Shown: positions 4,696-29,408 of the stretch, one piece after another
Position numbering within the stretch: position 1 is the stretch's first letter
Layout of the letters: each line of letters begins with the position of its first letter
NCBI GenBank assembly: GCA_026004775.1
Contig: BPJU01000016.1
Location: forward strand, 62,001 to 126,000
Length of the DNA stretch: 64,000 bases
From: Pirellulaceae bacterium
GTDB lineage: Bacteria; Planctomycetota; Planctomycetia; Pirellulales; Pirellulaceae
Direction of reading: 5' to 3'
Position numbers and translations under genes: made by a program
The notes under the pieces: model-generated
Database searches by the model: none
What the model was told of the DNA's origin: nothing
Seen by the model: the letters and a program-made list of their open reading frames with translations, nothing else

Positions 4696-4800
4696 GCTCA
4701 CTGCTCACTGCTCACTGCTCACTGCTCACTGCTCACTGCTCACTGCTCACTGCTCACTGCTCACTGCTCACTGCTCACTGCTCACTGCTCACTGCTCACT
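4696..4800. repeat. Heptamer array, GCTCACT x 15
   Basis: Fifteen perfect units. The left edge of the 12 kb duplicated segment falls inside this array: the second copy has 14 full units plus a partial one. Confidence 0.95.
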
Positions 4801-4948
4801 TTTTGTACACGGCTGCTCGCGCAGCAGAAGCGAGGCCTCGGCTATGCGGCGTGCCGGGCAACGTTGGGCTGACGTGGTGGCCTGTTCCCTTTCAAACCGT
4901 TGGTGTCCTGCGTGTCACAAGTTTTCGTTTCGATAAAGGAGCTTGCTT

Positions 4949-5329
4949 ATGTATCGGTTTCGTCGCCTAGACCTTGCATTGTTGCTTATCTGCGGAGTGC
5001 TTGCTTTGGCTGCGGCGTTTGCCAACTCCTTCTGCGCTACACTTAAGCCCGGCGACCCGCGCCGCAGCGGCGCCTGTACCGCCCCAACCGGTTGCGTAAA
5101 TCAGACAAGCGACTGTAGCGGGGTGACGACCGCCTCTTTCTTTCAGGCGGAGTTTACTTACGAAACGTGCCGAACGCCGCCATATCAGGTTTGCTACAAG
5201 TGCTGCGTCTTGACGTCGACTCTCCGATGTGTTAACCGGGATTTTTACATGTTTGCGGGTTGCATCGGGTATGTTTGCACCCGCGAGATTATGATGCCGA
5301 GATGCCAAACCGACTTTTCCGGCTGCTAG
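4949..5329 (+). CDS. Type C small cysteine-rich secreted protein (copy 1)
   Basis: This 126-residue protein has no family I recognise. The ATG is preceded by AAAGGA at 8 bases; an in-frame TTG two codons upstream is less likely. The signal peptide runs to about AAAFANS. The mature part has 13 Cys, starting FCATLKPGDPRRSGACTAP, then GCVNQTSDC, TASFFQAEFTYETC, a CYKCC block, RDFYMFAGCIGYVC and a C-terminal FSGC. The many Cys in an exported protein suggest a disulfide-stabilised fold. It lies about 130 bp upstream of its large partner on the same strand, so co-transcription is likely. Confidence 0.85.
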   Translation: MYRFRRLDLALLLICGVLALAAAFANSFCATLKPGDPRRSGACTAPTGCVNQTSDCSGVTTASFFQAEFTYETCRTPPYQVCYKCCVLTSTLRCVNRDFYMFAGCIGYVCTREIMMPRCQTDFSGC

Positions 5330-5456
5330 AACGGACGTATCGCTGGACGCGTGTACTTGATTCATTATCATTATAAATGCTACATCATTATTGTGCCGAT
5401 GTGTTGTCCTCCGCCGGGACGGTCTGTTACCACTGCCATCGGGAGGAGACCCTATT

Positions 5457-6608
5457 GTGGCTATTCCTGCTCGCATTGACAGAAATTCGTTGTTGTGGCG
5501 ACTTTCGATCCTACTAACGGCTTCGCTGCTGACCTCATGCGTTGCTACTACTAAGGCACAGGAAGCGGAGCGGCTCGTTGATGCGCTCGCAGCCTCAATT
5601 ACGCAATGGCATCACGATTTGGAGTTTTACTGCACGTATGAGCTCCTGGAAGGCTACGCCGTGTCCTTGGAAGACGCCCTCGCCGAAAGATACTCAGCCG
5701 AGCCGCGTGTGGTGGCACGAGGGGAGTATGCCAAAGCGCGCGGTTTTATTAGGCAAAGGATTGATTTCGAAGAACCGTCTCGCGACTTCGGAAACGGTTG
5801 GAAATCTGAATCCGATTGGGAGCTTGTGCGTAATTTAAACACCGGCGTTTCTTTAATCTATGAGCGGGAAGGTGGGGGCGCGCTGTTCCAAGACACTCAA
5901 GAACTCCAAGGTCCCTTTCCACAGGAGACTCCGGCGGCTGGCTCGCTTTCTGCGTTCAGTCCCTGTTTGTTGTTCGGCGAGTCCAGGAGACCGAATTATC
6001 TGCTGTTTCTCCGGCAAGAACAATCAACCCGGGCGGATGTGCAATTTCGCATTCTTCGACAGGACTCCGATTCGATCATTGTCGAGGCATTGTATGCACC
6101 TAAGGGAGTGGCCGAACCCATCCGATTCACCTTTGACTTTTTGAATGCCAAGCCGTATCCGCTTATGCATACTGTGCGGGTCGAGTCGGTTAAAGACGGG
6201 AAGGAGGCAGTATTACTTTCCCGTTTTACGGACTTTGTTCAGGTAGTTGGATCACAACTGGCGAAGAAAGTTTTGGTCATCTACTCGACAGGCAAGCCGC
6301 CTTTTCCTTTTCTTGTGAGGATTTGGAGGTCAAGCGATTTGGGCCAGCGTCCGCCGCAACATGAGGATTGTCTTGTACGAGTAGCCAGCCGGTCGATTGG
6401 TTGTTTGGCGACCCGCTCTTTACCGCCGCTGGTTGATGGCTACAGAACGGTTGATATTACGAAACTCTCAAAAGAAGACCTTGCCGAGGAATGTCGCAAG
6501 TCGCCAGTTCGTAGCGGACGTTCGATTTGGTGGTTATGGGCGATTCTGGGCGTCACTGTTTTGAGCCTGGTCGCCTGGGGTGTCTACCGCTGGCGGAGTG
6601 GCCACTGA
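5457..6608 (+). CDS. Type C large array protein, secreted and C-terminally membrane-anchored (copy 1)
   Basis: This 383-residue protein has no family I recognise. I chose the GTG start because GGGAGGAG lies 8 bases upstream; longer starts lack a site. The signal sequence (LLWRLSILLTASLLTSC) could be a lipobox-type export signal, since LLTSC ends in Cys. Shared blocks are VDALAASITQWHHDLEFYC, LEDALAERY, LLFGESRRPNYLLFLRQEQ, IRFTFDFLNAKPYPLMHTV, FTDFVQVVG, IYSTGKPPFPFLVRIWRSS, HEDCLVRV, GYRTVDITKLSKEDLAEEC, one transmembrane helix and the tail YRWRSGH. Its twin at 17411 has the same translation. Confidence 0.87.
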   Translation: MAIPARIDRNSLLWRLSILLTASLLTSCVATTKAQEAERLVDALAASITQWHHDLEFYCTYELLEGYAVSLEDALAERYSAEPRVVARGEYAKARGFIRQRIDFEEPSRDFGNGWKSESDWELVRNLNTGVSLIYEREGGGALFQDTQELQGPFPQETPAAGSLSAFSPCLLFGESRRPNYLLFLRQEQSTRADVQFRILRQDSDSIIVEALYAPKGVAEPIRFTFDFLNAKPYPLMHTVRVESVKDGKEAVLLSRFTDFVQVVGSQLAKKVLVIYSTGKPPFPFLVRIWRSSDLGQRPPQHEDCLVRVASRSIGCLATRSLPPLVDGYRTVDITKLSKEDLAEECRKSPVRSGRSIWWLWAILGVTVLSLVAWGVYRWRSGH

Positions 6609-6685
6609 ACGGGGTTGTGAGCCTAATAAAAGGTCCCAAGCCACAGAGCATGCAAAAGGCCCAGAGGAATGAGGTTGTTGGCGGT

Positions 6686-6699
6686 GCTCACTGCTCACT
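6686..6699. repeat. Short heptamer tract, GCTCACT x 2
   Basis: Only two units are present, upstream of module D, without the dyad and TTGACA block. Module D may be transcribed by readthrough from module C. Confidence 0.8.
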
Positions 6700-6960
6700 G
6701 CTGGGGTTTTCAGGGAATGACTTGCTGGTGACTGAAGATTCGTGATGTTCTAGCAACCGTGTGACTCAAAGAGGGTAGCGATGGCTTACGTGGTGACGTT
6801 ACCGGCGCTCCGGTTCAGGCTGGGTTTGGCAGGTCGGTGCTGTTCTGGTTTGAGCCACCCGCGTCTTTTCGGGCTGTTACTCGATCAGCTTGGGTCGACC
6901 GGCCTCGCGACAGAGTCAGCGTGCACGCTTCCGGCTGGTTGTTCATGCGCACTTGCAGCA
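6700..6960 (+). promoter_or_regulatory. Conserved leader shared by modules D and E
   Basis: From the end of the heptamers this leader matches the one at 12782-13030, including GGAATGACTTGCTGGTGAC, CTCAAAGAGGGTAGC and ATGGCTTACGTGGTGACG. A short frame opens at 6781 after AGAGGG and begins MAYVVTLPA in both; it runs past the small gene's start in another frame. It could be a leader peptide or merely a conserved RNA leader. The two sequences diverge after about 35 codons. Confidence 0.35.
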
Positions 6961-7049
6961 GCAAATCAGCCAACGCCTGCCTCCATGAGTCCCAAAACGT
7001 TTTTTGTCGCTGATCTTGTACGTTCTTTGCTTCACTACGGAGGTTCTCG

Positions 7050-7430
7050 ATGTACCCGCTGCGTCGCATTGACAAGGCGCTTGTGGTTCTGTGTGCCGTG
7101 CTTGCTTTGGCTCCCGTGTTTGCCAATTCGTTCTGCGCTACTATTGACCCGGGAGATCCGCGCCGCAGTGCCGCCTGCACGGCCCCAATGGGCTGTGTTA
7201 ACCAGACGAGCGACTGTAACGGCGTAGCTACAGCTTCATTTTTTCAGGCTGAGCTAACTTATGAGGCCTGTCGCTTTCCGCCCTATCCGGTCTGCTATAA
7301 GTGCGTCACCACCACCTCATCCCTACCTTGTGTCGCACCGGATTAATATGTCTTTACCAATTGCCTTGCGATTCCTCTGTGCCGTCGTTCGATACTGCCA
7401 CCGCGCTACTATACCGAGTGCAGTCCCTAG
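7050..7430 (+). pseudogene. Type D small cysteine-rich secreted protein with an in-frame stop (copy 1)
   Basis: The ATG follows CGGAGG. The signal peptide (LVVLCAVLALAPVFANS) and the mature start FCATIDPGDPRRSAACTAP match type C. The in-frame TAA at 7344-7346 stands where the paralogues have the Phe of RDFY or VRRDF. After it the same frame continues for 28 codons with matching features (YVFTNC, further Cys) to TAG at 7430, and the full length of 127 codons equals that of type C. So a single nonsense change interrupts an otherwise intact gene. Both copies of the duplication share it. The shortened product would lose the last Cys residues. Confidence 0.8.
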
Positions 7431-7660
7431 TATAGGAAAAATAGCCGCACCGTTGCTTCCGAAATTACTCGCGTTTAGTGATTCCGGTCTGCGACAACCA
7501 CCATGCTTTACAAAGGCCTGTGCTTAAAACGTTGGTTGCGATTTACGCCGCCACATGGTTGTGCCTTTAGGGCGCGTTTTGTTCCGGAACATTGTGCCGT
7601 GAAAATATATTTGGTTCCTGGTGCTTCGCCCTACCGATAGAAGTTTGCGGGGAGTTCACT

Positions 7661-8869
7661 ATGCACAGGCCTCTTCCACGATCTCACATGTTTTCTATGT
7701 TATCGCCGCGCCTCGGCGATTGCAGACAGGTGTCCTTTTGCTTGGTAATGACTTACTGCCTCTGCGGTGCGCCATTTGTTCCGAATGCCGATGACACAGA
7801 CAAGACAGTTGATGCTCCAAGTGCCGCGATCGATCAACGGGCGCATCACGTATATTTTTACTGCAACGCCGAAATATATAGCGGTTTCGCGGACTCATTA
7901 GAAGATGCGCAACACGAGCAATTTATTTCACCTTCAGTGCTACAAGCCCGTGAGGAATATGTAAAAAACGCGACCATGCGCCGGTATAAGCGTGGGCGAC
8001 TTATAGCTCGCAAAAAGGTGGATGGCCACTGGGACGAGGCCCCAGACATTGTCTTTGTTCGGACTGTCCGGAATCAGGTATATATGGGTTACTATTATGA
8101 CGCTATGTCAAGAGAGGCGCCGGGCCTATCTTTTGGTGAAACGTCCAATTCATTGGCTCTTCCCGAAGAGGGGCCCGCAGCCGGCCCTTGCGAAACTTAC
8201 AAGCCATGTTTTGTTTTTGGCACCTGGCGGAGCCCGAATTTCTTGAAGCATTTGCGGCAGCTGCGAAAAGAGGGTAGGCACGTAACGTTCGCGGTATCTC
8301 GTCCTGGTCGTGATAGTATCCTTATCGAATCCGTTATCAAAGAGGCTGGCTCCGGAAGCACGAGGCGCGTATTAATGCGTTTTTGCGACGTTACTCACTT
8401 TCCTGTCGTCCGTGAGGTGACCGCTTTGCAAAACCATGAAGGTCGCGAAGTACTTCAGATGCAGCTTTTTACCAGCTTCGTGCGCGTCTCAGGTGGTAGG
8501 CTTCCTAACAAGGCTATCGTGATTAGTAGCACAGGCAAGACGTCACCCCGATATGCAGTTATCGTGTGGGTATCAAACGACTTAGGCCCAAGGGAACCAC
8601 AGCTAGACGATTCTTTTCTGCGGGTGCCGAAGGAGGTCAGAGCCAATTGTGTAGCGCCTCACGCGCTACCACCGGCCACCGGCGACTTCCGGACTTTTGA
8701 CGTCGCTAAGATGTGGAAGGCAGATATCTCGGTTGAATGCCGTAAACAAGAGGCCAAGGCCTTATCCAAGTCGACACGAGTGCGCCTCTGGCTCATTGTG
8801 GCGACCGCTATGGTAAGCCTTGCTCTCTGGGGCGTCTATCGTTGTAAGCAGTTTCGCAATACCAGTTGA
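7661..8869 (+). CDS. Type D large array protein, secreted and C-terminally membrane-anchored (copy 1)
   Basis: This 402-residue protein has no family I recognise. The ATG follows GGGGAG; an upstream in-frame start at 7592 lacks such a site. A long N-terminal region precedes the hydrophobic segment (VSFCLVMTYCLCGAPF). The shared blocks are more worn here: VDAPSAAIDQRAHHVYFYC, LEDAQHEQF, VFGTWRSPNFLKHLRQLR, FTSFVRVSGG, SSTGKTSPRYAVIVWVSNDL, FRTFDVAKMWKADISVEC, then one transmembrane helix and YRCKQFR in place of the usual YRWRR tail. Its small partner carries a stop, so this large gene may act alone or be on the way to decay. Confidence 0.85.
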   Translation: MHRPLPRSHMFSMLSPRLGDCRQVSFCLVMTYCLCGAPFVPNADDTDKTVDAPSAAIDQRAHHVYFYCNAEIYSGFADSLEDAQHEQFISPSVLQAREEYVKNATMRRYKRGRLIARKKVDGHWDEAPDIVFVRTVRNQVYMGYYYDAMSREAPGLSFGETSNSLALPEEGPAAGPCETYKPCFVFGTWRSPNFLKHLRQLRKEGRHVTFAVSRPGRDSILIESVIKEAGSGSTRRVLMRFCDVTHFPVVREVTALQNHEGREVLQMQLFTSFVRVSGGRLPNKAIVISSTGKTSPRYAVIVWVSNDLGPREPQLDDSFLRVPKEVRANCVAPHALPPATGDFRTFDVAKMWKADISVECRKQEAKALSKSTRVRLWLIVATAMVSLALWGVYRCKQFRNTS

Positions 8870-9002
8870 GTACAGTGGGGAATTCTCAATAGAGAACGCC
8901 CATTTGGCCAGTGAAATACGCACGATCAGCCATGGGCGGCACGCGGTTTTTCTGGTAATTCCAGCCGTTTCGGGTCGTGAACGCACCGAGGTTGACCAAA
9001 TC

Positions 9003-9839
9003 ATGTGCGCTTCCTCATCCACCGAAAAAATTCGCCAACCATCTGGCCGTGGCGTTACTTTTGCCTTGGCCGTCCTGGCCTGTCTTCTGGCCGTAATCAC
9101 CGTCGGTCCATCGATCGTGTGGCATATCCGGCAGCTGGGAAACCGCTTCCTGTCTTCCGGCCAAGTGCTGATCGTACACGATCTGGGACCGGTACTCGTA
9201 GAAACACCTACCGCCGCCGATGCCTCCCGCCCGCCCCCGCGGATCGCTCATCGCTTTACCATCGAAAATCCTTCGCCTCACCAGTCGTTGCGGCTGGCGT
9301 TAGAAAAACGCTCGTGTGGTTGCCTTTCGGTAACGGAACCCGAACCCATCCCGCCCAACGGCACCGGGCAGGTTGAGCTCGCTTTTGTCCCCACCGGCCA
9401 ATCGGAACTCCGCAGCGAATCGGCCAGCTGGTCGAACTGGACGACCACGCCGCCAATGCGCTCATTGCGACCGGAGCGCTTTTCCCGGAACTGGGTATGC
9501 AGATCGACGGAAACGCTTATCGTTTTGCCCTGGAAATAACCAGTAATCCCCCCTTTGCAGGTTACGCCCAGGGCTTTGTTCTTGACCGATACCACTCCGA
9601 CCACGATCGAAGTGGCTGCCGAGAAACCTTTTCGCGTTCAGCAGTTGCCCGATTCCCTTCACTTGCTCGAATGTCAGGTAGACGGTCACGATCCAAGTCG
9701 CCTCCCCACGTGGCAGGTGGCGCTGGTAAAGCCGCCGGACGAGAATGTCGTCGAGACGCTGTTGTATCTGGAGCTGGACGGGTTGGAGGTTCCCGGGGTG
9801 ACGCTACCGGTGTATGCTTTTGGGCACAGCGGCAAATGA
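9003..9839 (+). pseudogene. DUF1573-family protein, broken by internal deletion and frameshifts (copy 1)
   Basis: The N-terminal membrane segment and the DUF1573 part with LEKRSCGCLSV match the intact gene at 33525. After SELRSE about 100 codons are missing. The following piece (NALIATGALFPEL to EITSNPP) and the C-terminus (TPRALFLTD to VYAFGHSGK) lie in other frames. It sits about 130 bp behind the type D large gene, in the same relative place as the truncated DUF1573 gene after type E. The role of DUF1573 proteins is not known to me. Confidence 0.8.
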
Positions 9840-10193
9840 TACGATTTCCGGTTATGAGTAGGCCCACACCTTCTGCGGTTGGAACGTCGACTTTGCTCAA
9901 TGTCTCAATAGGGATCATTGCCGGCAACAAAGCGCCGCCACTCCACGTGTCAATTCAAATCGCTAGCCATCGCATGTCGCAAAGCGTTGCAGCGCTATGC
10001 TGTGCGGAATGGGTCTTGATGATTACCGGGTCTGCGCTGGGTATCGATAAAATCGGAGCCCGTCTGCTTCGCCCGGCTATCCTTTCCGCCTGATAATAGC
10101 TTGTGTGAGAAAGTGCACGGTTTATGCGACGTGGGTGGAAACCCTCCGTGGTCTGTGTGTACGCGGTCAAACCATGTTGTGGCAGCACATTTC
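9840..10193. other. Intergenic stretch without a recognised feature
   Basis: It lies between convergent genes. I see no ORF with family support, no repeat and no clear terminator hairpin. Confidence 0.5.
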
Positions 10194-11912
10194 TTATCGC
10201 GTTTCTTCAGGCAACCGAATCGTCATATCGCGCGGCACGTGGAAAACCCACGTCGTATACGCGATGCGGGCTTTGGGTTCCATGCCCCACAACACATGGA
10301 ACGGCGATTTCGGATGGAGCAGTTCTTCAGCCGATACCAGATACCAGCCCGCCCGCAAGACTCGCGCGTCCCGGTCCAGCGACCTGCCGATGCTGCTGTA
10401 ATTCCTATTGTGCGCAGCGGGCACCTCCGGATGTGTTCGCTGCCACTGGTCGATGTAGTAGGCGTCTTGCCCTCGATCCAGATTGCTTCCCAATAGGTAC
10501 TTATAACCGCGCCCCGGCCCGCCAATGGCTTCATTAAAGTAAGACATGCTGTGTGGATAGACGGCTAAGCTACTTACCACAGTAGCCGACAACAACGACG
10601 CAACGGCACCCATTCGCAGAGCTCCCCCAGTCCGTTTATACGCGTTTGGATACCGAGCCACGCGGCTGATACTGATATAGGCAAAGGGCGCGATCGGCAG
10701 CACATACCGGAAGTGACGGCTGATACGGTGTTGGCTGATCAAAAGCAGCAGCATGACCAGCGCCGGGATTAATAACCACAGTTCTTCCTTCCAGCCAGCC
10801 CTAAACCGTGAGGAGCAGAGAGCTAGAACGGCGGCCAGGGCAACCAGGCTCCAGATGCCCAACGGGAGTTTGACCAGCGCCGCAGCGAAATAATAATACC
10901 ACCAGCCCTCTTTATTCCACCCGCCAAAGAGATAATTATCCCTCCTTTGCTGTGCCGCTGCACTCTGTAAATCGATCCCAACGACGTACAACCTGGGAAG
11001 CGGCACTGGAACCCAGCCCAAGTGCCAATTGACAAAACGGTTACCCATGTCGAATTTGGAAACGGGCTCGCCTTCAGGCTGTTCGGCAATACTGATGCCA
11101 CTGAAGATCGGGCTGCGGAATTGATACTTCCCTAGGGGTTGCAACGTACCCTCAAATCCGTAGGTCGCGTTGATTAAAAACAGCGCTATAACGCACAGCC
11201 AGCACAGTTGGCTGAATTCATACACAAAACCCTTGAGGCCGCTCTTATACGAACGCGTCACCAGCCAAAAACAGGGCAATACAACCGGCAGGAAGAGCCA
11301 GGTGGCTTTTGCCAATAAGGTCCACCCCAGCGAAACGCCCGCCAGCATACTATTAGGCCAATTCGGTTCGCGCAGCCATTGGCGAAATCGATATGCCGCC
11401 CACACCCCCAAAGATGCGGCAAAGTTGTCGGGCATAATCAGCGCATTGTTGGCCAGCATTTCGGGGGAGAAACACCACAACAACAACGCCACGGCTCCGG
11501 CAGTCGGCCCGAACAGCTCCCTGGCCCAGCTATAGCAAATGGCGGCTCCCAAAAGACTAAACGGTATGCACGCCAGCCGCCCCGCGAAATACAACCAACG
11601 CATGCGATCATCATTATTTGTGACAAACTCCAAATACAGGGACTCAGAAGCTTTCGCGTCTGAATCCGTTATGGCCCATTCGGGCTGGAACTTATGCGGC
11701 AGCAACAGTACAGGCAGAGCCCCCACCAGCCTGGACAAGGGCGGGTTGCGACAACTGGGCTCGAAAATCCCGGTCTTCCAGTGACAGATACCGGCAGGAA
11801 GATACTCGCCTTCATTTTCCACAGGTGAGTGTGCCCATGCGATATAGAGTAACAACGCCAGATGCACCAGCAGAACTACCCACACCCAGCGTGGTAAACG
11901 GCCTTTGTGCAT
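10194..11912 (-). CDS. GT-C fold glycosyltransferase, GT39/PMT-like (copy 1)
   Basis: This 572-residue polytopic membrane protein probably transfers a sugar from a lipid-phosphate donor on the outer face of the inner membrane. The N-terminal loop after the first helix has the acidic motif VENEGEYLPAG and NPPLSRLVGALP, typical of ArnT/PMT-like enzymes. Roughly ten hydrophobic segments follow, with a HFRYVLPIAPFAYI stretch late. The ATG start follows GAGG; a GTG seven codons upstream is also possible. It is the only large gene of the array on the minus strand. Placement among secreted-protein genes suggests envelope or glycoprotein modification, but the acceptor is unknown. Confidence 0.8.
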   Translation of the reverse strand: MHKGRLPRWVWVVLLVHLALLLYIAWAHSPVENEGEYLPAGICHWKTGIFEPSCRNPPLSRLVGALPVLLLPHKFQPEWAITDSDAKASESLYLEFVTNNDDRMRWLYFAGRLACIPFSLLGAAICYSWARELFGPTAGAVALLLWCFSPEMLANNALIMPDNFAASLGVWAAYRFRQWLREPNWPNSMLAGVSLGWTLLAKATWLFLPVVLPCFWLVTRSYKSGLKGFVYEFSQLCWLCVIALFLINATYGFEGTLQPLGKYQFRSPIFSGISIAEQPEGEPVSKFDMGNRFVNWHLGWVPVPLPRLYVVGIDLQSAAAQQRRDNYLFGGWNKEGWWYYYFAAALVKLPLGIWSLVALAAVLALCSSRFRAGWKEELWLLIPALVMLLLLISQHRISRHFRYVLPIAPFAYISISRVARYPNAYKRTGGALRMGAVASLLSATVVSSLAVYPHSMSYFNEAIGGPGRGYKYLLGSNLDRGQDAYYIDQWQRTHPEVPAAHNRNYSSIGRSLDRDARVLRAGWYLVSAEELLHPKSPFHVLWGMEPKARIAYTTWVFHVPRDMTIRLPEETR

Positions 11913-12572
11913 AGTGCACCTCGCGCCTGCCACTTTACCAGCCCTCGCGACCAGGGATCCTCATACTTTTGTCGAGAGTCCGTTTCACACTGTGTCTTCT
12001 GTCAAACTGCACTTTCTGACAAAAAGCTAACAAATGTTGCGCCAACCTATTCCCACGGCAAGGCGGCTACGCAGGCATGTGTTGCGATCACCCTGAATTA
12101 CACGGACCCGATCGATGGAGAATTGCTGTAGTCATGGTTGGTATGTGCTCACGGTTATCGTATGGTCTCCCCGTGCCTTCGAGCCGCCGCCATCATCCCT
12201 TTTTTATAGGCAAAGTCAGGACGGGAGGGCAAGCGGGCTTGTAAATAGCTTTGCACAATTCGGTGATAGACGAAAGCGACGGAAACTCGCTCTACGGGTC
12301 CATCAGCTGCTAAAGCTCTTCTACGGGGCTAAGCGGCGCCAGCTCGTTCTGGAGAACTTCAAAATCCACAATGCCGCACCCTTGACGAACCGGTGCAGAA
12401 CGCGTTTCGACACATCGAGGATCGTCACGGCCGCGGGCTACACGGATTAACCTGCCTTGCCGCCCGGCATGGAAATTGTTGCCGGATCATGCAAAGCCAT
12501 TTGAGCGTTCCACCCCCAAGCCCTCGGTGCGATCGGAGGCGCACCTGGCAGGGCCGTGCGGTTCGTCTACCA
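11913..12572. other. Intergenic stretch without a recognised feature
   Basis: It lies between divergent transcription units: upstream of the glycosyltransferase and of module E. Open frames here overlap on both strands and show no family pattern. The GAGG and start region of the glycosyltransferase is at its left edge. Confidence 0.5.
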
Positions 12573-12633
12573 GGGGGAAATTTGCGAAAAATTTCTGCCC
12601 CCCTCTTGACAAAGGGCGGGCAATCGTTAAATT
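12573..12633 (+). promoter_or_regulatory. Array promoter block (module E, copy 1)
   Basis: The dyad (AAATTTGCGAAAAATTT core with flanking G and C runs), TTGACA at 12606 and TAAATT at 12628 with 16-bp spacing are present. This has the best -10 hexamer of the series. Confidence 0.55.
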
Positions 12634-12682
12634 GGGCTCCGGAAATAGGGAGGGTGTGTAGTGGGGCTGCGGGGTTCGTGGT

Positions 12683-12781
12683 GCTCACTGCTGCACTGCT
12701 CACTGCTCACTGCTCACTGCTCACTGCTCACTGCTCACTGCTCACTGCTCACTGCTCACTGCTCACTGCTCACTGCTCACT
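12683..12781. repeat. Heptamer array, 14 units, one imperfect
   Basis: One GCTCACT, one 8-bp variant GCTGCACT, then twelve perfect units. The matching array in the second copy has fifteen perfect units. Confidence 0.95.
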
Positions 12782-13030
12782 GCTGGGGGTTTTCGGGGAA
12801 TGACTTGCTGGTGACCGACGATTCGTGCTGATCTGCACAACCGTACGACTCAAAGAGGGTAGCAATGGCTTACGTGGTGACGTTACCGGCGTTCCGCATC
12901 AGGCTGGGTTTGGCAGGCCTGTGCCATTCTGGTTTGCTCCGCCACTATCTTTTCGGGGTGTTGGTTGATCAGATTGCGCGCCCGAACGTGGCGGCGGCGC
13001 CGCCTAGTACGCTTCCGGCTTGCCGTTCAT
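12782..13030 (+). promoter_or_regulatory. Conserved leader shared with module D
   Basis: It matches the leader at 6700, including the possible short frame MAYVVTLPA at 12865 that overruns the small gene start. Function unknown. Confidence 0.35.
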
Positions 13031-13133
13031 TCCCCGTTCCGCGCACTCGGCAGCAGGGGCGCTGGCGGAATGCGTACCAAGCGTTTTTTCTGCCCGGTTC
13101 TGTAGGCTTTCTTTGTACCACAGGAGATGGTTT

Positions 13134-13505
13134 ATGTACCGGCTTACTCATTGTGACAAGGCGTTATTATGCCTGTGCGCTGCGACTGCCATGGCGCTTG
13201 TGATTCCGAGTGCGGTTTGTGTGGTTATTAACCCTGGGGACCCCCGCCGCACTTTGGCTTGTACAGCGCCCAATGGCTGTGTCAACCAACAAAGTGTTTG
13301 CACGGGCGGTCCTGATACCGAATCTTTCTTCCAGGGCGAATTATCTTACAATCAATGCTTCCAGCCATCGGCGCCTGTAACTACGAAATGCGAGGTACTG
13401 GACGCCAGTCTTCCTTGCGTGCGACGAGACTTTTACCTTTTTCCAAACTGCATTGGTTGGCAGTGTTTCCGTTTCATTACGGCTCCCGATTGCCGCACCA
13501 GGTAA
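13134..13505 (+). CDS. Type E small cysteine-rich secreted protein (copy 1)
   Basis: This 123-residue protein has no family I recognise. The ATG follows AGGAG by 7 bases; a longer in-frame start at 13020 has no site. The signal peptide (LLCLCAATAMALVIPSA) is followed by a mature part with 10 Cys: CVVINPGDPRRTLACTAP, GCVNQQSVC, ESFFQGELSYNQC, TKCEVLDASLPC, RRDFYLFPNCIGWQC and PDC. It is the tidiest intact member outside types C, B and F. The gap to its large partner is 63 bp, consistent with one transcript. Confidence 0.85.
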   Translation: MYRLTHCDKALLCLCAATAMALVIPSAVCVVINPGDPRRTLACTAPNGCVNQQSVCTGGPDTESFFQGELSYNQCFQPSAPVTTKCEVLDASLPCVRRDFYLFPNCIGWQCFRFITAPDCRTR

Positions 13506-13568
13506 TGCCTCTATCCCACATCACACCCCGCTTGCCCCGAACCGAACTCACAGAGAGGAGTGACCGGC

Positions 13569-14747: not shown

Positions 14748-14881
14748 CTGCTCTGGAGATTTGTCAATCGAAAACTTCTGCCTGGATTTTTCGACTACGC
14801 AAGATCAGCCATACGTACCGAACGGTTTTTCTGGTAATTCCAGCCGTTTCGGGTCGTGAACGCACCGAGGTTGACCAAATC

Positions 14882-18639: not shown

Positions 18640-18653
18640 GCTCACTGCTCACT
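18640..18653. repeat. Short heptamer tract, GCTCACT x 2
   Basis: Two units, as in the first copy at 6686, again without a promoter block. Confidence 0.8.
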
Positions 18654-18914: not shown

Positions 18915-19003
18915 GCAAATCAGCCAACGCCTGCCTCCATGAGTCCCAAAACGTTTTTTGTCGCTGATCTTGTACGTTCTTTGCTTCACTACGGAGGTTC
19001 TCG

Positions 19004-19384: not shown

Positions 19385-19614
19385 TATAGGAAAAATAGCC
19401 GCACCGTTGCTTCCGAAATTACTCGCGTTTAGTGATTCCGGTCTGCGACAACCACCATGCTTTACAAAGGCCTGTGCTTAAAACGTTGGTTGCGATTTAC
19501 GCCGCCACATGGTTGTGCCTTTAGGGCGCGTTTTGTTCCGGAACATTGTGCCGTGAAAATATATTTGGTTCCTGGTGCTTCGCCCTACCGATAGAAGTTT
19601 GCGGGGAGTTCACT

Positions 19615-20823: not shown

Positions 20824-20956
20824 GTACAGTGGGGAATTCTCAATAGAGAACGCCCATTTGGCCAGTGAAATACGCACGATCAGCCATGGGCGGCACGCGG
20901 TTTTTCTGGTAATTCCAGCCGTTTCGGGTCGTGAACGCACCGAGGTTGACCAAATC

Positions 20957-21793
20957 ATGTGCGCTTCCTCATCCACCGAAAAAATTCGCCAACCATCTGG
21001 CCGTGGCGTTACTTTTGCCTTGGCCGTCCTGGCCTGTCTTCTGGCCGTAATCACCGTCGGTCCATCGATCGTGTGGCATATCCGGCAGCTGGGAAACCGC
21101 TTCCTGTCTTCCGGCCAAGTGCTGATCGTACACGATCTGGGACCGGTACTCGTAGAAACACCTACCGCCGCCGATGCCTCCCGCCCGCCCCCGCGGATCG
21201 CTCATCGCTTTACCATCGAAAATCCTTCGCCTCACCAGTCGTTGCGGCTGGCGTTAGAAAAACGCTCGTGTGGTTGCCTTTCGGTAACGGAACCCGAACC
21301 CATCCCGCCCAACGGCACCGGGCAGGTTGAGCTCGCTTTTGTCCCCACCGGCCAATCGGAACTCCGCAGCGAATCGGCCAGCTGGTCGAACTGGACGACC
21401 ACGCCGCCAATGCGCTCATTGCGACCGGAGCGCTTTTCCCGGAACTGGGTATGCAGATCGACGGAAACGCTTATCGTTTTGCCCTGGAAATAACCAGTAA
21501 TCCCCCCTTTGCAGGTTACGCCCAGGGCTTTGTTCTTGACCGATACCACTCCGACCACGATCGAAGTGGCTGCCGAGAAACCTTTTCGCGTTCAGCAGTT
21601 GCCCGATTCCCTTCACTTGCTCGAATGTCAGGTAGACGGTCACGATCCAAGTCGCCTCCCCACGTGGCAGGTGGCGCTGGTAAAGCCGCCGGACGAGAAT
21701 GTCGTCGAGACGCTGTTGTATCTGGAGCTGGACGGGTTGGAGGTTCCCGGGGTGACGCTACCGGTGTATGCTTTTGGGCACAGCGGCAAATGA
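20957..21793 (+). pseudogene. DUF1573-family protein, internally deleted and frameshifted (copy 2)
   Basis: Same defects as the gene at 9003: the SCGC region is intact, about 100 codons are missing after SELRSE, and the C-terminus lies in another frame. Confidence 0.8.
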
Positions 21794-22147
21794 TACGATT
21801 TCCGGTTATGAGTAGGCCCACACCTTCTGCGGTTGGAACGTCGACTTTGCTCAATGTCTCAATAGGGATCATTGCCGGCAACAAAGCGCCGCCACTCCAC
21901 GTGTCAATTCAAATCGCTAGCCATCGCATGTCGCAAAGCGTTGCAGCGCTATGCTGTGCGGAATGGGTCTTGATGATTACCGGGTCTGCGCTGGGTATCG
22001 ATAAAATCGGAGCCCGTCTGCTTCGCCCGGCTATCCTTTCCGCCTGATAATAGCTTGTGTGAGAAAGTGCACGGTTTATGCGACGTGGGTGGAAACCCTC
22101 CGTGGTCTGTGTGTACGCGGTCAAACCATGTTGTGGCAGCACATTTC
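21794..22147. other. Intergenic stretch without a recognised feature (copy 2)
   Basis: Repeat of 9840-10193, with nothing recognised. Confidence 0.5.
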
Positions 22148-23866
22148 TTATCGCGTTTCTTCAGGCAACCGAATCGTCATATCGCGCGGCACGTGGAAAA
22201 CCCACGTCGTATACGCGATGCGGGCTTTGGGTTCCATGCCCCACAACACATGGAACGGCGATTTCGGATGGAGCAGTTCTTCAGCCGATACCAGATACCA
22301 GCCCGCCCGCAAGACTCGCGCGTCCCGGTCCAGCGACCTGCCGATGCTGCTGTAATTCCTATTGTGCGCAGCGGGCACCTCCGGATGTGTTCGCTGCCAC
22401 TGGTCGATGTAGTAGGCGTCTTGCCCTCGATCCAGATTGCTTCCCAATAGGTACTTATAACCGCGCCCCGGCCCGCCAATGGCTTCATTAAAGTAAGACA
22501 TGCTGTGTGGATAGACGGCTAAGCTACTTACCACAGTAGCCGACAACAACGACGCAACGGCACCCATTCGCAGAGCTCCCCCAGTCCGTTTATACGCGTT
22601 TGGATACCGAGCCACGCGGCTGATACTGATATAGGCAAAGGGCGCGATCGGCAGCACATACCGGAAGTGACGGCTGATACGGTGTTGGCTGATCAAAAGC
22701 AGCAGCATGACCAGCGCCGGGATTAATAACCACAGTTCTTCCTTCCAGCCAGCCCTAAACCGTGAGGAGCAGAGAGCTAGAACGGCGGCCAGGGCAACCA
22801 GGCTCCAGATGCCCAACGGGAGTTTGACCAGCGCCGCAGCGAAATAATAATACCACCAGCCCTCTTTATTCCACCCGCCAAAGAGATAATTATCCCTCCT
22901 TTGCTGTGCCGCTGCACTCTGTAAATCGATCCCAACGACGTACAACCTGGGAAGCGGCACTGGAACCCAGCCCAAGTGCCAATTGACAAAACGGTTACCC
23001 ATGTCGAATTTGGAAACGGGCTCGCCTTCAGGCTGTTCGGCAATACTGATGCCACTGAAGATCGGGCTGCGGAATTGATACTTCCCTAGGGGTTGCAACG
23101 TACCCTCAAATCCGTAGGTCGCGTTGATTAAAAACAGCGCTATAACGCACAGCCAGCACAGTTGGCTGAATTCATACACAAAACCCTTGAGGCCGCTCTT
23201 ATACGAACGCGTCACCAGCCAAAAACAGGGCAATACAACCGGCAGGAAGAGCCAGGTGGCTTTTGCCAATAAGGTCCACCCCAGCGAAACGCCCGCCAGC
23301 ATACTATTAGGCCAATTCGGTTCGCGCAGCCATTGGCGAAATCGATATGCCGCCCACACCCCCAAAGATGCGGCAAAGTTGTCGGGCATAATCAGCGCAT
23401 TGTTGGCCAGCATTTCGGGGGAGAAACACCACAACAACAACGCCACGGCTCCGGCAGTCGGCCCGAACAGCTCCCTGGCCCAGCTATAGCAAATGGCGGC
23501 TCCCAAAAGACTAAACGGTATGCACGCCAGCCGCCCCGCGAAATACAACCAACGCATGCGATCATCATTATTTGTGACAAACTCCAAATACAGGGACTCA
23601 GAAGCTTTCGCGTCTGAATCCGTTATGGCCCATTCGGGCTGGAACTTATGCGGCAGCAACAGTACAGGCAGAGCCCCCACCAGCCTGGACAAGGGCGGGT
23701 TGCGACAACTGGGCTCGAAAATCCCGGTCTTCCAGTGACAGATACCGGCAGGAAGATACTCGCCTTCATTTTCCACAGGTGAGTGTGCCCATGCGATATA
23801 GAGTAACAACGCCAGATGCACCAGCAGAACTACCCACACCCAGCGTGGTAAACGGCCTTTGTGCAT
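22148..23866 (-). CDS. GT-C fold glycosyltransferase, GT39/PMT-like (copy 2)
   Basis: Same translation as the gene at 10194: the periplasmic acidic VENEGEY motif, NPPLSRLVG and roughly ten hydrophobic segments. It is on the opposite strand to the array modules that flank it. Confidence 0.8.
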   Translation of the reverse strand: MHKGRLPRWVWVVLLVHLALLLYIAWAHSPVENEGEYLPAGICHWKTGIFEPSCRNPPLSRLVGALPVLLLPHKFQPEWAITDSDAKASESLYLEFVTNNDDRMRWLYFAGRLACIPFSLLGAAICYSWARELFGPTAGAVALLLWCFSPEMLANNALIMPDNFAASLGVWAAYRFRQWLREPNWPNSMLAGVSLGWTLLAKATWLFLPVVLPCFWLVTRSYKSGLKGFVYEFSQLCWLCVIALFLINATYGFEGTLQPLGKYQFRSPIFSGISIAEQPEGEPVSKFDMGNRFVNWHLGWVPVPLPRLYVVGIDLQSAAAQQRRDNYLFGGWNKEGWWYYYFAAALVKLPLGIWSLVALAAVLALCSSRFRAGWKEELWLLIPALVMLLLLISQHRISRHFRYVLPIAPFAYISISRVARYPNAYKRTGGALRMGAVASLLSATVVSSLAVYPHSMSYFNEAIGGPGRGYKYLLGSNLDRGQDAYYIDQWQRTHPEVPAAHNRNYSSIGRSLDRDARVLRAGWYLVSAEELLHPKSPFHVLWGMEPKARIAYTTWVFHVPRDMTIRLPEETR

Positions 23867-24526
23867 AGTGCACCTCGCGCCTGCCACTTTACCAGCCCTC
23901 GCGACCAGGGATCCTCATACTTTTGTCGAGAGTCCGTTTCACACTGTGTCTTCTGTCAAACTGCACTTTCTGACAAAAAGCTAACAAATGTTGCGCCAAC
24001 CTATTCCCACGGCAAGGCGGCTACGCAGGCATGTGTTGCGATCACCCTGAATTACACGGACCCGATCGATGGAGAATTGCTGTAGTCATGGTTGGTATGT
24101 GCTCACGGTTATCGTATGGTCTCCCCGTGCCTTCGAGCCGCCGCCATCATCCCTTTTTTATAGGCAAAGTCAGGACGGGAGGGCAAGCGGGCTTGTAAAT
24201 AGCTTTGCACAATTCGGTGATAGACGAAAGCGACGGAAACTCGCTCTACGGGTCCATCAGCTGCTAAAGCTCTTCTACGGGGCTAAGCGGCGCCAGCTCG
24301 TTCTGGAGAACTTCAAAATCCACAATGCCGCACCCTTGACGAACCGGTGCAGAACGCGTTTCGACACATCGAGGATCGTCACGGCCGCGGGCTACACGGA
24401 TTAACCTGCCTTGCCGCCCGGCATGGAAATTGTTGCCGGATCATGCAAAGCCATTTGAGCGTTCCACCCCCAAGCCCTCGGTGCGATCGGAGGCGCACCT
24501 GGCAGGGCCGTGCGGTTCGTCTACCA
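23867..24526. other. Intergenic stretch without a recognised feature (copy 2)
   Basis: Repeat of 11913-12572, with nothing recognised. Confidence 0.5.
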
Positions 24527-24587
24527 GGGGGAAATTTGCGAAAAATTTCTGCCCCCCTCTTGACAAAGGGCGGGCAATCGTTAAATT
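24527..24587 (+). promoter_or_regulatory. Array promoter block (module E, copy 2)
   Basis: Dyad, TTGACA at 24560 and TAAATT at 24582, as in copy 1. Confidence 0.55.
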
Positions 24588-24636
24588 GGGCTCCGGAAAT
24601 AGGGAGGGTGTGTAGTGGGGCTGCGGGGTTCGTGGT

Positions 24637-24741
24637 GCTCACTGCTCACTGCTCACTGCTCACTGCTCACTGCTCACTGCTCACTGCTCACTGCTCACTG
24701 CTCACTGCTCACTGCTCACTGCTCACTGCTCACTGCTCACT
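24637..24741. repeat. Heptamer array, GCTCACT x 15
   Basis: Fifteen perfect units, against fourteen with one imperfect in the first copy. The net difference is 6 bp. Confidence 0.95.
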
Positions 24742-24990
24742 GCTGGGGGTTTTCGGGGAATGACTTGCTGGTGACCGACGATTCGTGCTGATCTGCACAA
24801 CCGTACGACTCAAAGAGGGTAGCAATGGCTTACGTGGTGACGTTACCGGCGTTCCGCATCAGGCTGGGTTTGGCAGGCCTGTGCCATTCTGGTTTGCTCC
24901 GCCACTATCTTTTCGGGGTGTTGGTTGATCAGATTGCGCGCCCGAACGTGGCGGCGGCGCCGCCTAGTACGCTTCCGGCTTGCCGTTCAT
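24742..24990 (+). promoter_or_regulatory. Conserved leader before module E (copy 2)
   Basis: Repeat of the leader at 12782, with a possible short frame at 24825. Confidence 0.33.
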
Positions 24991-25093
24991 TCCCCGTTCC
25001 GCGCACTCGGCAGCAGGGGCGCTGGCGGAATGCGTACCAAGCGTTTTTTCTGCCCGGTTCTGTAGGCTTTCTTTGTACCACAGGAGATGGTTT

Positions 25094-25465
25094 ATGTACC
25101 GGCTTACTCATTGTGACAAGGCGTTATTATGCCTGTGCGCTGCGACTGCCATGGCGCTTGTGATTCCGAGTGCGGTTTGTGTGGTTATTAACCCTGGGGA
25201 CCCCCGCCGCACTTTGGCTTGTACAGCGCCCAATGGCTGTGTCAACCAACAAAGTGTTTGCACGGGCGGTCCTGATACCGAATCTTTCTTCCAGGGCGAA
25301 TTATCTTACAATCAATGCTTCCAGCCATCGGCGCCTGTAACTACGAAATGCGAGGTACTGGACGCCAGTCTTCCTTGCGTGCGACGAGACTTTTACCTTT
25401 TTCCAAACTGCATTGGTTGGCAGTGTTTCCGTTTCATTACGGCTCCCGATTGCCGCACCAGGTAA
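25094..25465 (+). CDS. Type E small cysteine-rich secreted protein (copy 2)
   Basis: Same translation as the gene at 13134: 123 residues, signal peptide, 10 Cys in the mature part, and AGGAG before the ATG. Confidence 0.85.
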   Translation: MYRLTHCDKALLCLCAATAMALVIPSAVCVVINPGDPRRTLACTAPNGCVNQQSVCTGGPDTESFFQGELSYNQCFQPSAPVTTKCEVLDASLPCVRRDFYLFPNCIGWQCFRFITAPDCRTR

Positions 25466-25528
25466 TGCCTCTATCCCACATCACACCCCGCTTGCCCCGA
25501 ACCGAACTCACAGAGAGGAGTGACCGGC

Positions 25529-26707
25529 ATGATTTTCACCTGGCCTCATTTCAAGCAATGGTTAGGCCCATTGCTACTTGTTTTTCTCGCCGATACCGCT
25601 GTGTCGTCTGTTATATGGGGCAATCCACCCAATGATACCGATCCCTTGATAGGTGCGCTTGCGGCCGCCATTACCCAATGGCATCGGGATTTGCAGTTTT
25701 ATTGTACGTATCAACTGTTCGAGGGCTCCGCCAGGTCTGTACAGGATGCACTCGCCGAGAAGTATATCCGTCCGCCGGAATTGGTCGCCCGTGGCCTGTA
25801 TGTAAAGACTCGGGACTACATCCGGCAACAGATCGACTACATCAAGGAAGACCCGGGCCGTGTTCCGGTAGGGGCAACTGAGTCCGAGCAAGGCGTAATG
25901 GACTGGGAAGCAGTACGGAGTCTTAAAACCGGCGTTGCTTTATTTTACTATCCTAGCCTTGGTGATGCATTGTTCGGTGAAACGATGGCCATTCAGAGGC
26001 CGTTTCCTGTAGACAGTCCTTCCGCCAGCTATTTTCCCGTTTACAGTCCCTGTGTGTTGTTCGGGGAATCAAGTCGGCCCAATTACCTTTTATTTTTGCG
26101 CGAACAACAACAAAGTGCCAAGGATGTGACGTTCGAAGTTATGCGCCACGATGGTGAGTCGATATTAGTTGGGGCCCGTTACGCAGCACCCGGGCTCGCC
26201 GGGCCTATGCGATTTTCCTTTGATTTTTTGAACACACGGCCATACCCGATCTTACGGGAAGCCCGTATCGAAGCAATGTCCGACGGCCGGGAGAAAGTTC
26301 TCGTGTCACAATTCTCTGATTTTGTCGAGGTTATCGGTGGACTCCTAGCTCGAAAAGTGGTAATAGTTCTGGCAGGGGGTAAGGCACCAACGGCGTCGGT
26401 GACCCTGTGGCAGTCAACTGATTTGGGGAGCCGTCCGCCGCGACACGAGGATTGTCTTGTTCGGATCGCCCAAGGCCATGTTATTCGTTGCCTGAGGGAG
26501 ACATCTTACCCGCCGCTGGTAGGCGGATACAAAACTATAGATATTACCAAATTGTCGCCCAATGACATCGCTGAGGCATGCCGCAAACCGCAGTCACGGA
26601 CGCGCTCTTTCACCCGCATGGCAGTGTGGGGCTTTTTTGGTGTCACTGTGTTGAGTCTGGCTTGCTGGGGTCTGTACCGCTGGAGGCAGCGCCATAAAAA
26701 CGGTTGA
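25529..26707 (+). CDS. Type E large array protein (copy 2)
   Basis: Same translation as the gene at 13569: signal sequence, all shared family blocks, C-terminal helix and YRWRQRHKNG tail. Confidence 0.87.
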   Translation: MIFTWPHFKQWLGPLLLVFLADTAVSSVIWGNPPNDTDPLIGALAAAITQWHRDLQFYCTYQLFEGSARSVQDALAEKYIRPPELVARGLYVKTRDYIRQQIDYIKEDPGRVPVGATESEQGVMDWEAVRSLKTGVALFYYPSLGDALFGETMAIQRPFPVDSPSASYFPVYSPCVLFGESSRPNYLLFLREQQQSAKDVTFEVMRHDGESILVGARYAAPGLAGPMRFSFDFLNTRPYPILREARIEAMSDGREKVLVSQFSDFVEVIGGLLARKVVIVLAGGKAPTASVTLWQSTDLGSRPPRHEDCLVRIAQGHVIRCLRETSYPPLVGGYKTIDITKLSPNDIAEACRKPQSRTRSFTRMAVWGFFGVTVLSLACWGLYRWRQRHKNG

Positions 26708-26841
26708 CTGCTCTGGAGATTTGTCAATCGAAAACTTCTGCCTGGATTTTTCGACTACGCAAGATCAGCCATACGTACCGAACGGTTTTTCTGGTAATTC
26801 CAGCCGTTTCGGGTCGTGAACGCACCGAGGTTGACCAAATC

Positions 26842-27552
26842 ATGTGCGCTTCCTCATCCACCGAAAAAATTCGCCAACCATCTGGCCGTGGCGTTACTTT
26901 TGCCTTGGCCGTCCTGGCCTGTCTTCTGGCCGTAATCGCCGTCGGTCCATCGATCGTGCGGCATATCCGGCAGCTGGGAAACCGCTTCCTGTCTTCCGGC
27001 CAAGTGCTGATCGTACACGATCTGGGACCGGTACTCGTAGAAACACCTACCGCCGCCGATGCCTCCCGCCCGCCCCCGCGGATCGCTCATCGCTTTACCA
27101 TCGAAAATCCTTCGCCTCACCAGTCGTTGCGGCTGGCGTTAGAAAAACGCTCGTGTGGTTGCCTTTCGGTAACGGAACCCGAACCCATCCCGCCCAACGG
27201 TACCGGGCAGGTTGAGCTCGCTTTTGTCCCCGCCGGTCAATTGGAACTCCGCAGCGAATTGGCCAGCTTCACGACGAATCTCCAGCAGCCTCGCTCGGTC
27301 ACGCTCCTGTGGAAGGCTCATCTGCTTCCCCGCGTGGAGTTGCTGGGGGCTCGCCGGCGCTACATCCCCTATGGCGGGCCGTATCGCCTCCAAACGGCTA
27401 TCCGCTATCACAGTCCTGCCTATTGGCACAGGCCAATCCGCGTTGGGATGGGACGTCAACTCGCCACGGGGGTAATACTTTACTATTTGGCTTCGCACCC
27501 TCTGCTGCACGCCCAGGGGGAAATTTGCGAAAAATTTTTGCCCCCCTCTTGA
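26842..27552 (+). pseudogene. DUF1573-family protein, 3' truncated (copy 2)
   Basis: Repeat of the truncated gene at 14882. Homology to the intact DUF1573 gene ends near 27415-27425, before the module F promoter block. Confidence 0.8.
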
Positions 27553-27576
27553 CAAACAACGCGGAATCGTTAGCTT
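27516..27576 (+). promoter_or_regulatory. Array promoter block (module F, copy 2)
   Basis: Dyad, TTGACA at 27549 and TAGCTT at 27571, as in copy 1. Confidence 0.5.
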
Positions 27577-27625
27577 AGGGGGTCATAATCGGGGAGGTGA
27601 GTAGTGGTGGTGCGGGGTTGGCGGT

Positions 27626-27695
27626 GCTCACTGCTCACTGCTCACTGCTCACTGCTCACTGCTCACTGCTCACTGCTCACTGCTCACTGCTCACT
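27626..27695. repeat. Heptamer array, GCTCACT x 10
   Basis: Ten perfect units, one more than its counterpart at 15666. Confidence 0.95.
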
Positions 27696-27747
27696 GCTCC
27701 GGGTCTTGCGATTGGTAGTGTATGACATCTTGGCAGGAGGAACGGTT

Positions 27748-28146
27748 ATGGTCCGGTTGCGTTCTGTTGACATGGTCCTTCTCGTTCTGTGTGTAGTTTT
27801 TGGGGCAGCCGCTGTCTACGACCAGTCATTCTGTGCGTTGATTCCCATAGGTGCACCGAATCGTGCCCCTGAATGCGTCGTGACTGACTCTAGTTGCCAC
27901 AACCAGTCGGGCCTCTGTCAGAACAGCGAAGGTGAAACGGTCCAGTATGCGTCGTGGAAGTTCGTCGAACTGGCGTATAACACATGTCGGCCCGCCCCCG
28001 GAAGTTGTTACAAGTGCATAGTCTTGAATTCAAAGCTCCCATGTAAGGTTAAGGTCTATTTTATGGACACGAATTGTGGGGGTGCTACTGTCTGTGAAGA
28101 GGCCCAGGAGGTAAACGAATGCGAAACCGACCTTAGCGGTTGTTGA
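27748..28146 (+). CDS. Type F small cysteine-rich secreted protein (copy 2)
   Basis: Same translation from the ATG as the gene at 15781, with AGGAGG upstream. Here its partner, the type A large gene, is complete, so this is the only intact F-A module in the window. Confidence 0.85.
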   Translation: MVRLRSVDMVLLVLCVVFGAAAVYDQSFCALIPIGAPNRAPECVVTDSSCHNQSGLCQNSEGETVQYASWKFVELAYNTCRPAPGSCYKCIVLNSKLPCKVKVYFMDTNCGGATVCEEAQEVNECETDLSGC

Positions 28147-28193
28147 GGGCCGTAACCGCAAAATTTCGCCATGCTTTGCGGGAGTTATTGATT

Positions 28194-29408
28194 ATGGGGC
28201 GTGCAGGGTGTCGGACCGCAGCGCTTTTCTGGTGCGTTTGCTTCTCGGTTGTATCCTTGGCTCGGCAGGTGTGCGTTTATGCCCAATCACGAGATTCCAC
28301 GATTCGGGAGGTGGATGCTTTGGCTGCCGCCACCGACACCTGGCTGACGAGTATCGAGTTCTATTGCAGGTTTGAGCAATATTCGGGAACCGCAGCCTCC
28401 TGGGACGACGCACTGGCCGAGAAATACACAAAACCGTTGCAGTTACGCTGCACGGGCGAGTATGCCGTGAGCAAGGATTGTATTCGCCATGCCGTACGTG
28501 ATCCCAATGCGCCAAGCCCGTCCGGGTCACGAAACGCCGCTACCACCAGCGCTCCCCAAAAAACCAGCGGCGGTCTGAAAATCCACGATGCTGCCCGGAA
28601 CAAAAAAAGCCGTGTCCGTCTGATTTGGCAACCCGGAAAGGCTCAATTCTTGCCCTGGATGCCCGACCAGCGGTCGGAACTTGCATTACCCGATGAGGCA
28701 TTGGTGGCTGATGACTATGTTACCATGTTCCTAGCTGCACCAACCTTTGTATGGGGATGGGCAAGGTTTTCTAACTTGCTGAGCCATTATCGTAATCGCG
28801 AGCGTCGCGGCCAGACAGTGCGTTGGGAGGTCATACGGCCAAATCCAGAGACGTGGGAGGTACACATCGGGGACCGCGATGAGCTCAGCCGAACCGTGGC
28901 GCTCTATCAGCTCGTTGGGCAATTTCCGATGCTGACGAAACTAGAAACTCTGCGAAGGCAAGATCCCAACGCTTCGTGGGAACGCAGCTCGATCGCGTTT
29001 TATGAAAAACCGGTTCTGGTGACTGGTGGGCCGATCGCCAGCCAGGTACGCAGTATGTATGTAACTTTAGAAGGAATTTCCGTCCGCCTATGGCGCGCCA
29101 CGGATTTCCGGGCACCGCGGTCGCAAGATTTCATCGTACGCGTACCGGCGGATGACCGGATCTATTGTGTCCAGCGTTCTTCGATCCCTTCGGCCGCCGG
29201 CGGTTACCGACCGTTCGACATAGCTCGGATGTCAACCGCCGATCTCTCGTGGGAATGCCGCGTCCCGGGGATTGCTGGGATTCCTGAGGCGGAGTCTGCT
29301 AGCAACTACGGGTGGCTATGGCTATTAGGAGTAGCCGCACTGGCTACGCTGCTGCTGTGCGCGGTCTATCGATGGAGGAAAAAAGGACTGAGATGGCGCA
29401 CTTCCTGA
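28194..29408 (+). CDS. Type A large array protein, secreted and C-terminally membrane-anchored (copy 2)
   Basis: This 404-residue protein follows CGGGAG. Layout is the same as in the copy at 470: signal peptide, VDALAAATDTWLTSIEFYC, the less conserved middle (FVWGWARFSNLLSHYRNRE takes the place of the FGESRRPNYLLFLR block), RVPADDRIYCVQ, GYRPFDIARMS, a C-terminal helix and the tail WRKKGLRWR. Its intact small partner lies 47 bp upstream. The first 142 codons are the source or product of the truncated gene at 16227. Confidence 0.87.
   Translation: MGRAGCRTAALFWCVCFSVVSLARQVCVYAQSRDSTIREVDALAAATDTWLTSIEFYCRFEQYSGTAASWDDALAEKYTKPLQLRCTGEYAVSKDCIRHAVRDPNAPSPSGSRNAATTSAPQKTSGGLKIHDAARNKKSRVRLIWQPGKAQFLPWMPDQRSELALPDEALVADDYVTMFLAAPTFVWGWARFSNLLSHYRNRERRGQTVRWEVIRPNPETWEVHIGDRDELSRTVALYQLVGQFPMLTKLETLRRQDPNASWERSSIAFYEKPVLVTGGPIASQVRSMYVTLEGISVRLWRATDFRAPRSQDFIVRVPADDRIYCVQRSSIPSAAGGYRPFDIARMSTADLSWECRVPGIAGIPEAESASNYGWLWLLGVAALATLLLCAVYRWRKKGLRWRTS

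Follow-up and report, generated by a model that had tools for sequence, protein, structure and literature searches.

A 64,000-nucleotide stretch of a Pirellulaceae genome (assembly GCA_026004775.1, 6.14 Mb in 30 contigs; positions 62001-126000 of contig BPJU01000016.1, here C16; this whole stretch is called the window) holds a segment of 11.95 kb, with several related surface-protein genes in it, twice, in direct orientation, adjacent and head to tail. We read it as a real and very young tandem duplication that formed without long homology, and give this reading, drawn from the sequence of one assembly alone, a probability of about 70%. Duplications of this kind are ordinary; the interest lies in a cluster of young duplications and in the array-led cassettes that it copies.

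Two near-identical copies

How alike are the two copies? Self-comparison of the window aligns 4687-16653 with 16644-28620 over 11,980 columns, with no mismatches and 6 gap openings, and exact string comparison finds all 11,682 non-array bases identical, in three blocks: 4801-12681 = 16755-24635, 12785-15664 = 24745-27624, and 15733-16653 = 27700-28620. The copies differ solely in the lengths of heptamer arrays, and both internal arrays (2/2) differ; that of the type A module is one heptamer shorter in copy 1 (15665) than in copy 2 (27625). The first-pass annotation had described a near-perfect 12-kb head-to-tail duplication that doubles several gene modules and a glycosyltransferase gene, and the zero mismatches and the gene content (Table 1) bear it out; the pseudogene lesions that it saw in both copies must be shared because there are no mismatches, which makes this a deduction rather than a lesion-by-lesion listing. 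Since only the arrays have changed after the duplication, they are the fastest-changing sites: two of two internal arrays altered, as against 0 of 11,682 surrounding bases, in one copy pair of one genome.

Table 1. Features of the duplication, its surroundings and its counterparts (window positions unless a contig is named)
Feature	Position	Strand	Basis or remark
Duplication copy 1	4695..16653	+	self-comparison, exact string comparison
Duplication copy 2	16652..28620	+	self-comparison, exact string comparison
Novel joint, type A gene ...GTCCGTC fused to ACTGCTCAC array	16644..16664		TC shared; parent comparison
Truncated type A gene	16173..16826	+	160 shared residues and 57 read through array and beyond
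Intact type A gene spanning right end of copy 2	28140..29408	+	sequence comparison
Promoter-like TTGACA / TACCTT and leader with GGAGG, then GTG codons	4614..4688	+	before first array, missing at joint; by eye
Array of first duplicated module, left parent of joint	4689..4800	+	15 units after irregular first unit
Shortened array at joint	16652..16754	+	TCAC and 14 units; has lost promoter-like box and leader
Module E array, copy 1	12682..12784	+	irregular, 6 bases shorter than copy 2
Module E array, copy 2	24636..24744	+
Type A module array, copy 1	15665..15732	+	9 full units
Type A module array, copy 2	27625..27699	+	10 full units
Small Cys-rich protein, first module	4949..5329	+	signal-like start
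Large protein, first module	5391..6608	+	C-terminal membrane segment; paralogue of modelled LolA-like protein
Large paralogue	7592..8869	+
DUF1573-like protein	8820..9539	+	weak Pfam match below cut-off, 23.3 vs 26.1 bits
PMT_2/Alg9-like membrane glycosyltransferase	10194..11933	-	Pfam, PMT_2 match
Small Cys-rich protein, module E	13134..13505	+
Large protein, module E	13560..14747	+	modelled LolA/LolB-like fold; structure model
DUF1573-like protein	14744..15592	+	weak Pfam match below cut-off, 24.4 vs 26.1 bits
Small Cys-rich protein, type A module	15781..16179	+
Older repeat X1 (type A plus next module)	337..4179	+	~98% like X2
Older repeat X2	28061..33495	+	interrupted by IS4-family element
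IS4-family transposase gene	29734..31173	+	in X2, missing from X1
Tandem duplication under study	C16 66.7-90.6 kb		interior differences 0; 2 shared bases
8.95-kb tandem duplication	C16:23055-40976		same contig, outside window; interior differences 0; 2 shared bases; joint at 32.0 kb
8.88-kb tandem duplication	C2:191880-209641		interior differences 0; 1 shared base; joint at 200.76 kb
4.49-kb tandem duplication	C5:40619-49595		interior differences 5 (substitutions); 3 shared bases; joint at 45.1 kb

The joint and its predicted consequences

The copies meet at 16653 in the sequence GTGTCCGTCACTGCTCAC. Its left parent is the heptamer array that starts at 4689; its right parent, GTGTCCGTC/TGATTTGG, lies at 28620 inside the intact type A gene, where the break falls at GTCCGTC, with neither an array nor an insertion sequence (IS) at the spot. 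Two bases, TC, are common to both parents. The broken type A gene, its fusion to the array and the overlap of 2-3 bases reported earlier all hold, the overlap at its lower figure. The array at the joint consists of TCAC and 14 of the parent's 15 units and requires no change in length. In copy 1 the type A gene is cut after codon 160 and its frame runs to 217 residues in total; the protein would have lost the last 262 of its 422 residues, the membrane segment included, and a gain or loss of one or two heptamers would move the end of the truncated frame to 236-252 residues. Of 146 genomes of the order, two show matches to the type A protein: this one gives 15 and another a single weak one (E-value 5.1e-5).

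At the joint, the first module of copy 2 has also lost its promoter-like box and leader. Its transcription is therefore predicted to come from the last promoter of copy 1, in an operon that starts before the 15665 array. Promoter-like boxes were picked by eye, from their conservation before arrays; a consensus promoter scan of 15000-18000 found no plus-strand promoter between 16094 and 16652, and the same scan missed the promoter-like box before the 15665 array.

How did the joint arise? Probably by template switching, which we prefer because only two bases are shared and no repeat lies at the right breakpoint. During replication, by a switch of template or by slippage, a 3' end extended on the type A gene would have re-primed ~12 kb upstream in the first module's heptamer array, which could supply many equivalent landing sites. 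The small Cys-rich genes, the LolA-like and DUF1573-like proteins and the glycosyltransferase would thereby be doubled in dose; once formed, the copies could collapse or expand by recombination while their arrays drift. The alternative is that repeats at the segment ends underwent unequal homologous recombination or guided an IS-mediated duplication; this is very improbable and would require the joint to have been edited afterwards. Arrays and paralogous genes are present throughout, and an IS4-family element lies ~1 kb beyond the right end, but that element is outside the duplicated unit, and the right break, in type A sequence free of arrays and IS, offers two shared bases only.

A parallel to template switching as proposed here comes from lac amplification in E. 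coli, where all 40 of 40 sequenced junctions have microhomology and 16 of the 40 lie in repetitive extragenic palindromic (REP) repeats (PMC3161906). In both systems the repeats are direct, the parents of a joint have few bases in common, and joints sometimes fall in short repeats. Unlike the lac case as that source presents it, the unit here stands twice and is not amplified, no selection is known, several loci are involved, and the joint lies in a 7-base array (PMC3161906).

Other tandem duplications in the genome

The first-pass annotation treated the duplication as a single event. It is in fact one of four near-perfect adjacent direct duplications of at least 4 kb (C16, 12 kb and 8.95 kb; C2, 8.88 kb; C5, 4.49 kb) in a survey of 1,688,376 bases, a non-random 27% of the genome for which array-bearing contigs were chosen first. 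A BLAST alignment across the 8.95-kb joint gives 4 mismatches and a gap inside ~30 bases; two of these mismatches agree with the right parent, and the two shared bases adjoin a further 7-base match. That duplication carries what we take, by eye, to be LarC-like and DUF1080-like genes. The C2 pair has a single mismatch, located at its joint. Read by eye, the exact shared bases at the four joints number 2, 2, 1 and 3, a sum that random joining would reach or exceed with P = 0.017 if bases are used equally and joints are independent.

Older tandem pairs stand at 97-99% identity, some with a short spacer: one at C5 200.97 kb (98.6%, spacer 311), one at C5 1-8207 (98.9%, spacer 125), and a shorter one with a spacer at C1 115.3-119.6 kb (1.8 kb, 99.45%). 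Young duplications also occur at contig ends, on C27 (3.1 kb, 1 difference) and C20 (1.96 kb, 3 differences). In one relative, 400,000 bases contain no direct repeat of at least 500 bases with a spacer below 3 kb above 95.9% identity.

Two SBP_bac_10 genes with the same scores, at C7:17590-18462 and 22995-23867, lie 5.4 kb apart and are a possible further tandem duplication. C1:264076-273815 contains ~10 kb of internal tandem repeats at ~77% identity, perhaps one giant repeat protein.

Duplication or assembly artefact

The earlier warning that an assembly artefact could produce this pattern was apt and still stands. In that case a single-copy locus would have been assembled twice, from a chimeric read or from an unmerged contig-end overlap that was kept, and the differences in arrays and at joints would be consensus errors; we consider this unlikely, though a serious competitor. 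Among 51 contig ends examined, three pairs have near-identical end-to-start overlaps that remain unmerged (C25/C28, 7.5 kb; C10/C18, 3.2 kb; C5/C11, 297 bases), which shows that such overlaps exist to be kept; yet these pairs stayed separate, so ends were not blindly joined there. The unmerged overlaps also suggest a long-read assembly, where a joint without overlap would have to be crossed by a read. The 12-kb copies differ only in arrays, where consensus is hardest, but the two array changes are separate and argue against one stretch pasted twice. Identity across the tandem pairs is graded, not all-or-none: interior differences of 0, 0, 0 and 5, the last being substitutions in the 4.49-kb pair, followed by the older pairs, are what an age series of tandem duplications would give. 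The joints share more bases than random joining predicts, and all four join head-to-tail neighbours, which chance ligation would not do. The locus has duplicated before, as X1 and X2 (98%) and its paralogous modules testify.

Several observations weigh against a real duplication. Just after the 8.95-kb joint, two substitutions and a deletion are explained by neither parent, three differences that consensus error would accommodate. Contig ends carry repeats of about this size, as though the assembly had broken on them, and for this reason a resolved exact repeat of 12 kb is surprising: the starts of C4 and C15 are exactly identical over 10,958 bases, and the first and last 11.7 kb of C6 are inverted copies, 99.84% identical, with the differences mostly in the last 2 kb. 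The duplication is known from the assembled sequence of one isolate, from one genome of its genus, and the rate control is one relative, a sample so small that about one near-perfect duplication would be expected there at the rate of this genome. The predicted operon fusion, for its part, leans on boxes read by eye, one of which the consensus scan missed.

C29 shares 7.4-7.6 kb with C4 and C15 (C29 was covered to 20,000). An unresolved tandem repeat was considered as the source of the shared C4, C15 and C29 ends, and no fitting match was found when pairs had to reach 1,800 bases and 97.5% identity; these ends look like copies of a dispersed repeat.

If the duplications are real, several have been caught before point mutations built up, and their joints, the clock rates of their arrays and the early fate of a duplicated operon become directly readable. 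If they are artefacts, gene counts from such assemblies should wait until their near-perfect tandem duplications have read support.

Heptamer arrays

In the surveyed bases, a sample that favours array-bearing contigs, all 18 perfect 7-base arrays of at least 4 units are (TGCTCAC)n; perfect arrays of 8 or 9 bases number four, and there are none of 5, 6, 10 or 11 bases. Of 146 genomes of the order, this one alone contains the 28-base heptamer pattern, with 192 overlapping matches. A 25-base version turns up in many phyla, with at least 114 matching stretches among named genomes, and the heptamer itself is therefore not unique to this genome. Loss of mismatch repair was considered as a cause of repeat instability and is unsupported: MutS_I is present.

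One mark of a phase-variable contingency locus, a simple repeat array in the promoter, leader or start of a gene, is found in the modules, and another, array length that changes faster than its surroundings, is seen in this one pair of copies. One heptamer alters which leader frame enters the small gene of the type A module, a gene that has its own Shine-Dalgarno sequence and ATG. Pairing between leader and array as a possible RNA switch, assessed by our own shuffling scheme, was matched in strength by at most 8 of 300 shuffles in four of eight leaders, and by 32, 36, 64 and 147 of 300 in the others.

Two known systems resemble these arrays in part. In Haemophilus influenzae, hmw1A and hmw2A have 7-base arrays of variable length in the promoter region, and more repeats lower expression (PMC8262952). 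These, too, are tandem heptamers near promoters of surface-protein genes; according to that account, however, they lie between promoters P2 and P1, whereas the arrays here follow the promoter-like box, in the leader, and are known as sequence only. The TAACTGA repeats of Beggiatoaceae and others, as reported, share one dominant heptamer, many sets, a frequent position upstream of start codons and a scattered phylogeny (PMC4679880). Their heptamer is another one, the arrays here are longer, and the TAACTGA repeats accompany many gene functions where ours accompany one cassette type (PMC4679880). Among the matches listed, literature titles and abstract openings bring up neither this heptamer nor near-perfect tandem duplications of planctomycetes; a single tandem pair of sulfatases, 76% identical in amino acids, is mentioned in one paper (PMC4807772).

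The cassette family

The doubled genes belong to a lineage-restricted, array-led cassette family, which the duplication, if real, has exposed. In a typical module, a TTGACA-type box and a leader precede an array, which is followed by genes for two proteins: a small, Cys-rich one whose start is signal-like, and a large one whose C-terminus holds a membrane segment. A DUF1573-like protein is added in some modules, and its Pfam scores in the window are just below cut-off. No array of at least three units precedes the module whose large gene is 7592-8869. Outside the window, nine array loci inspected by eye (one with only 3 units) are all followed by a frame of 370-570 codons, and eight of the nine also have a short Cys-rich protein, the exception being C10. 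When eight proteins from four of these loci were compared with Pfam, three matched DUF1573 above cut-off, one MauE above and one MauE below it, and three gave none.

The large protein of module E was modelled (pLDDT 74, from 8 sequences), and the fold was tested for this protein only. Structure comparison of that one model places it with the LolA/LolB fold, a half-barrel of antiparallel sheet with a helix, which by itself shows no function: the best Foldseek match is 3buu (E 1.1e-5, TM 0.32/0.50), and the best VIA match is 9tpm (Z 13.4, root-mean-square deviation 6.3, 221 aligned). The resemblance to the LolA/LolB superfamily (3buu, 9tpm and others) covers the predicted fold of residues ~38-327; unlike that superfamily, the large protein has a C-terminal membrane segment, lacks a Pfam family match and is only ~10% identical to its best matches. 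The model of the small Cys-rich protein was of too low quality for use (pLDDT 40). Matches to a Shiga toxin model (13.7 bits against a cut-off of 715) and to a herpesvirus model (E 0.0052, one of 8 members) were taken as chance.

A broader idea, which we regard as doubtful, is that (TGCTCAC)n marks dispersed promoter-led cassettes of Cys-rich secreted, LolA-like anchored, DUF1573 and sometimes MauE proteins, and that the arrays would both tune or switch each cassette and serve as template-switch landing sites that copy and fuse cassettes, new copies differing only in array state.

Further observations

A 513-base stretch of the DUF1573-like genes (8917-9429 and 14796-15308) is 96.9% identical across otherwise divergent modules, resembling gene conversion. 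The Pfam family PF07596 scores 52 matches here and is seen in 0 of 14 controls, as suits a planctomycete. The IS4-family element in X2 (29609-31206) is flanked, by eye, by a 10-base direct repeat, GCGAGGACGC, and a near-identical copy of it begins ~300 bases beyond the C5 tandem duplication. Tandem repeats of 114-132 bases lie at 4049-4426 of the window and at C16:41656-43683, and other short tandem repeats are present at several contig ends.

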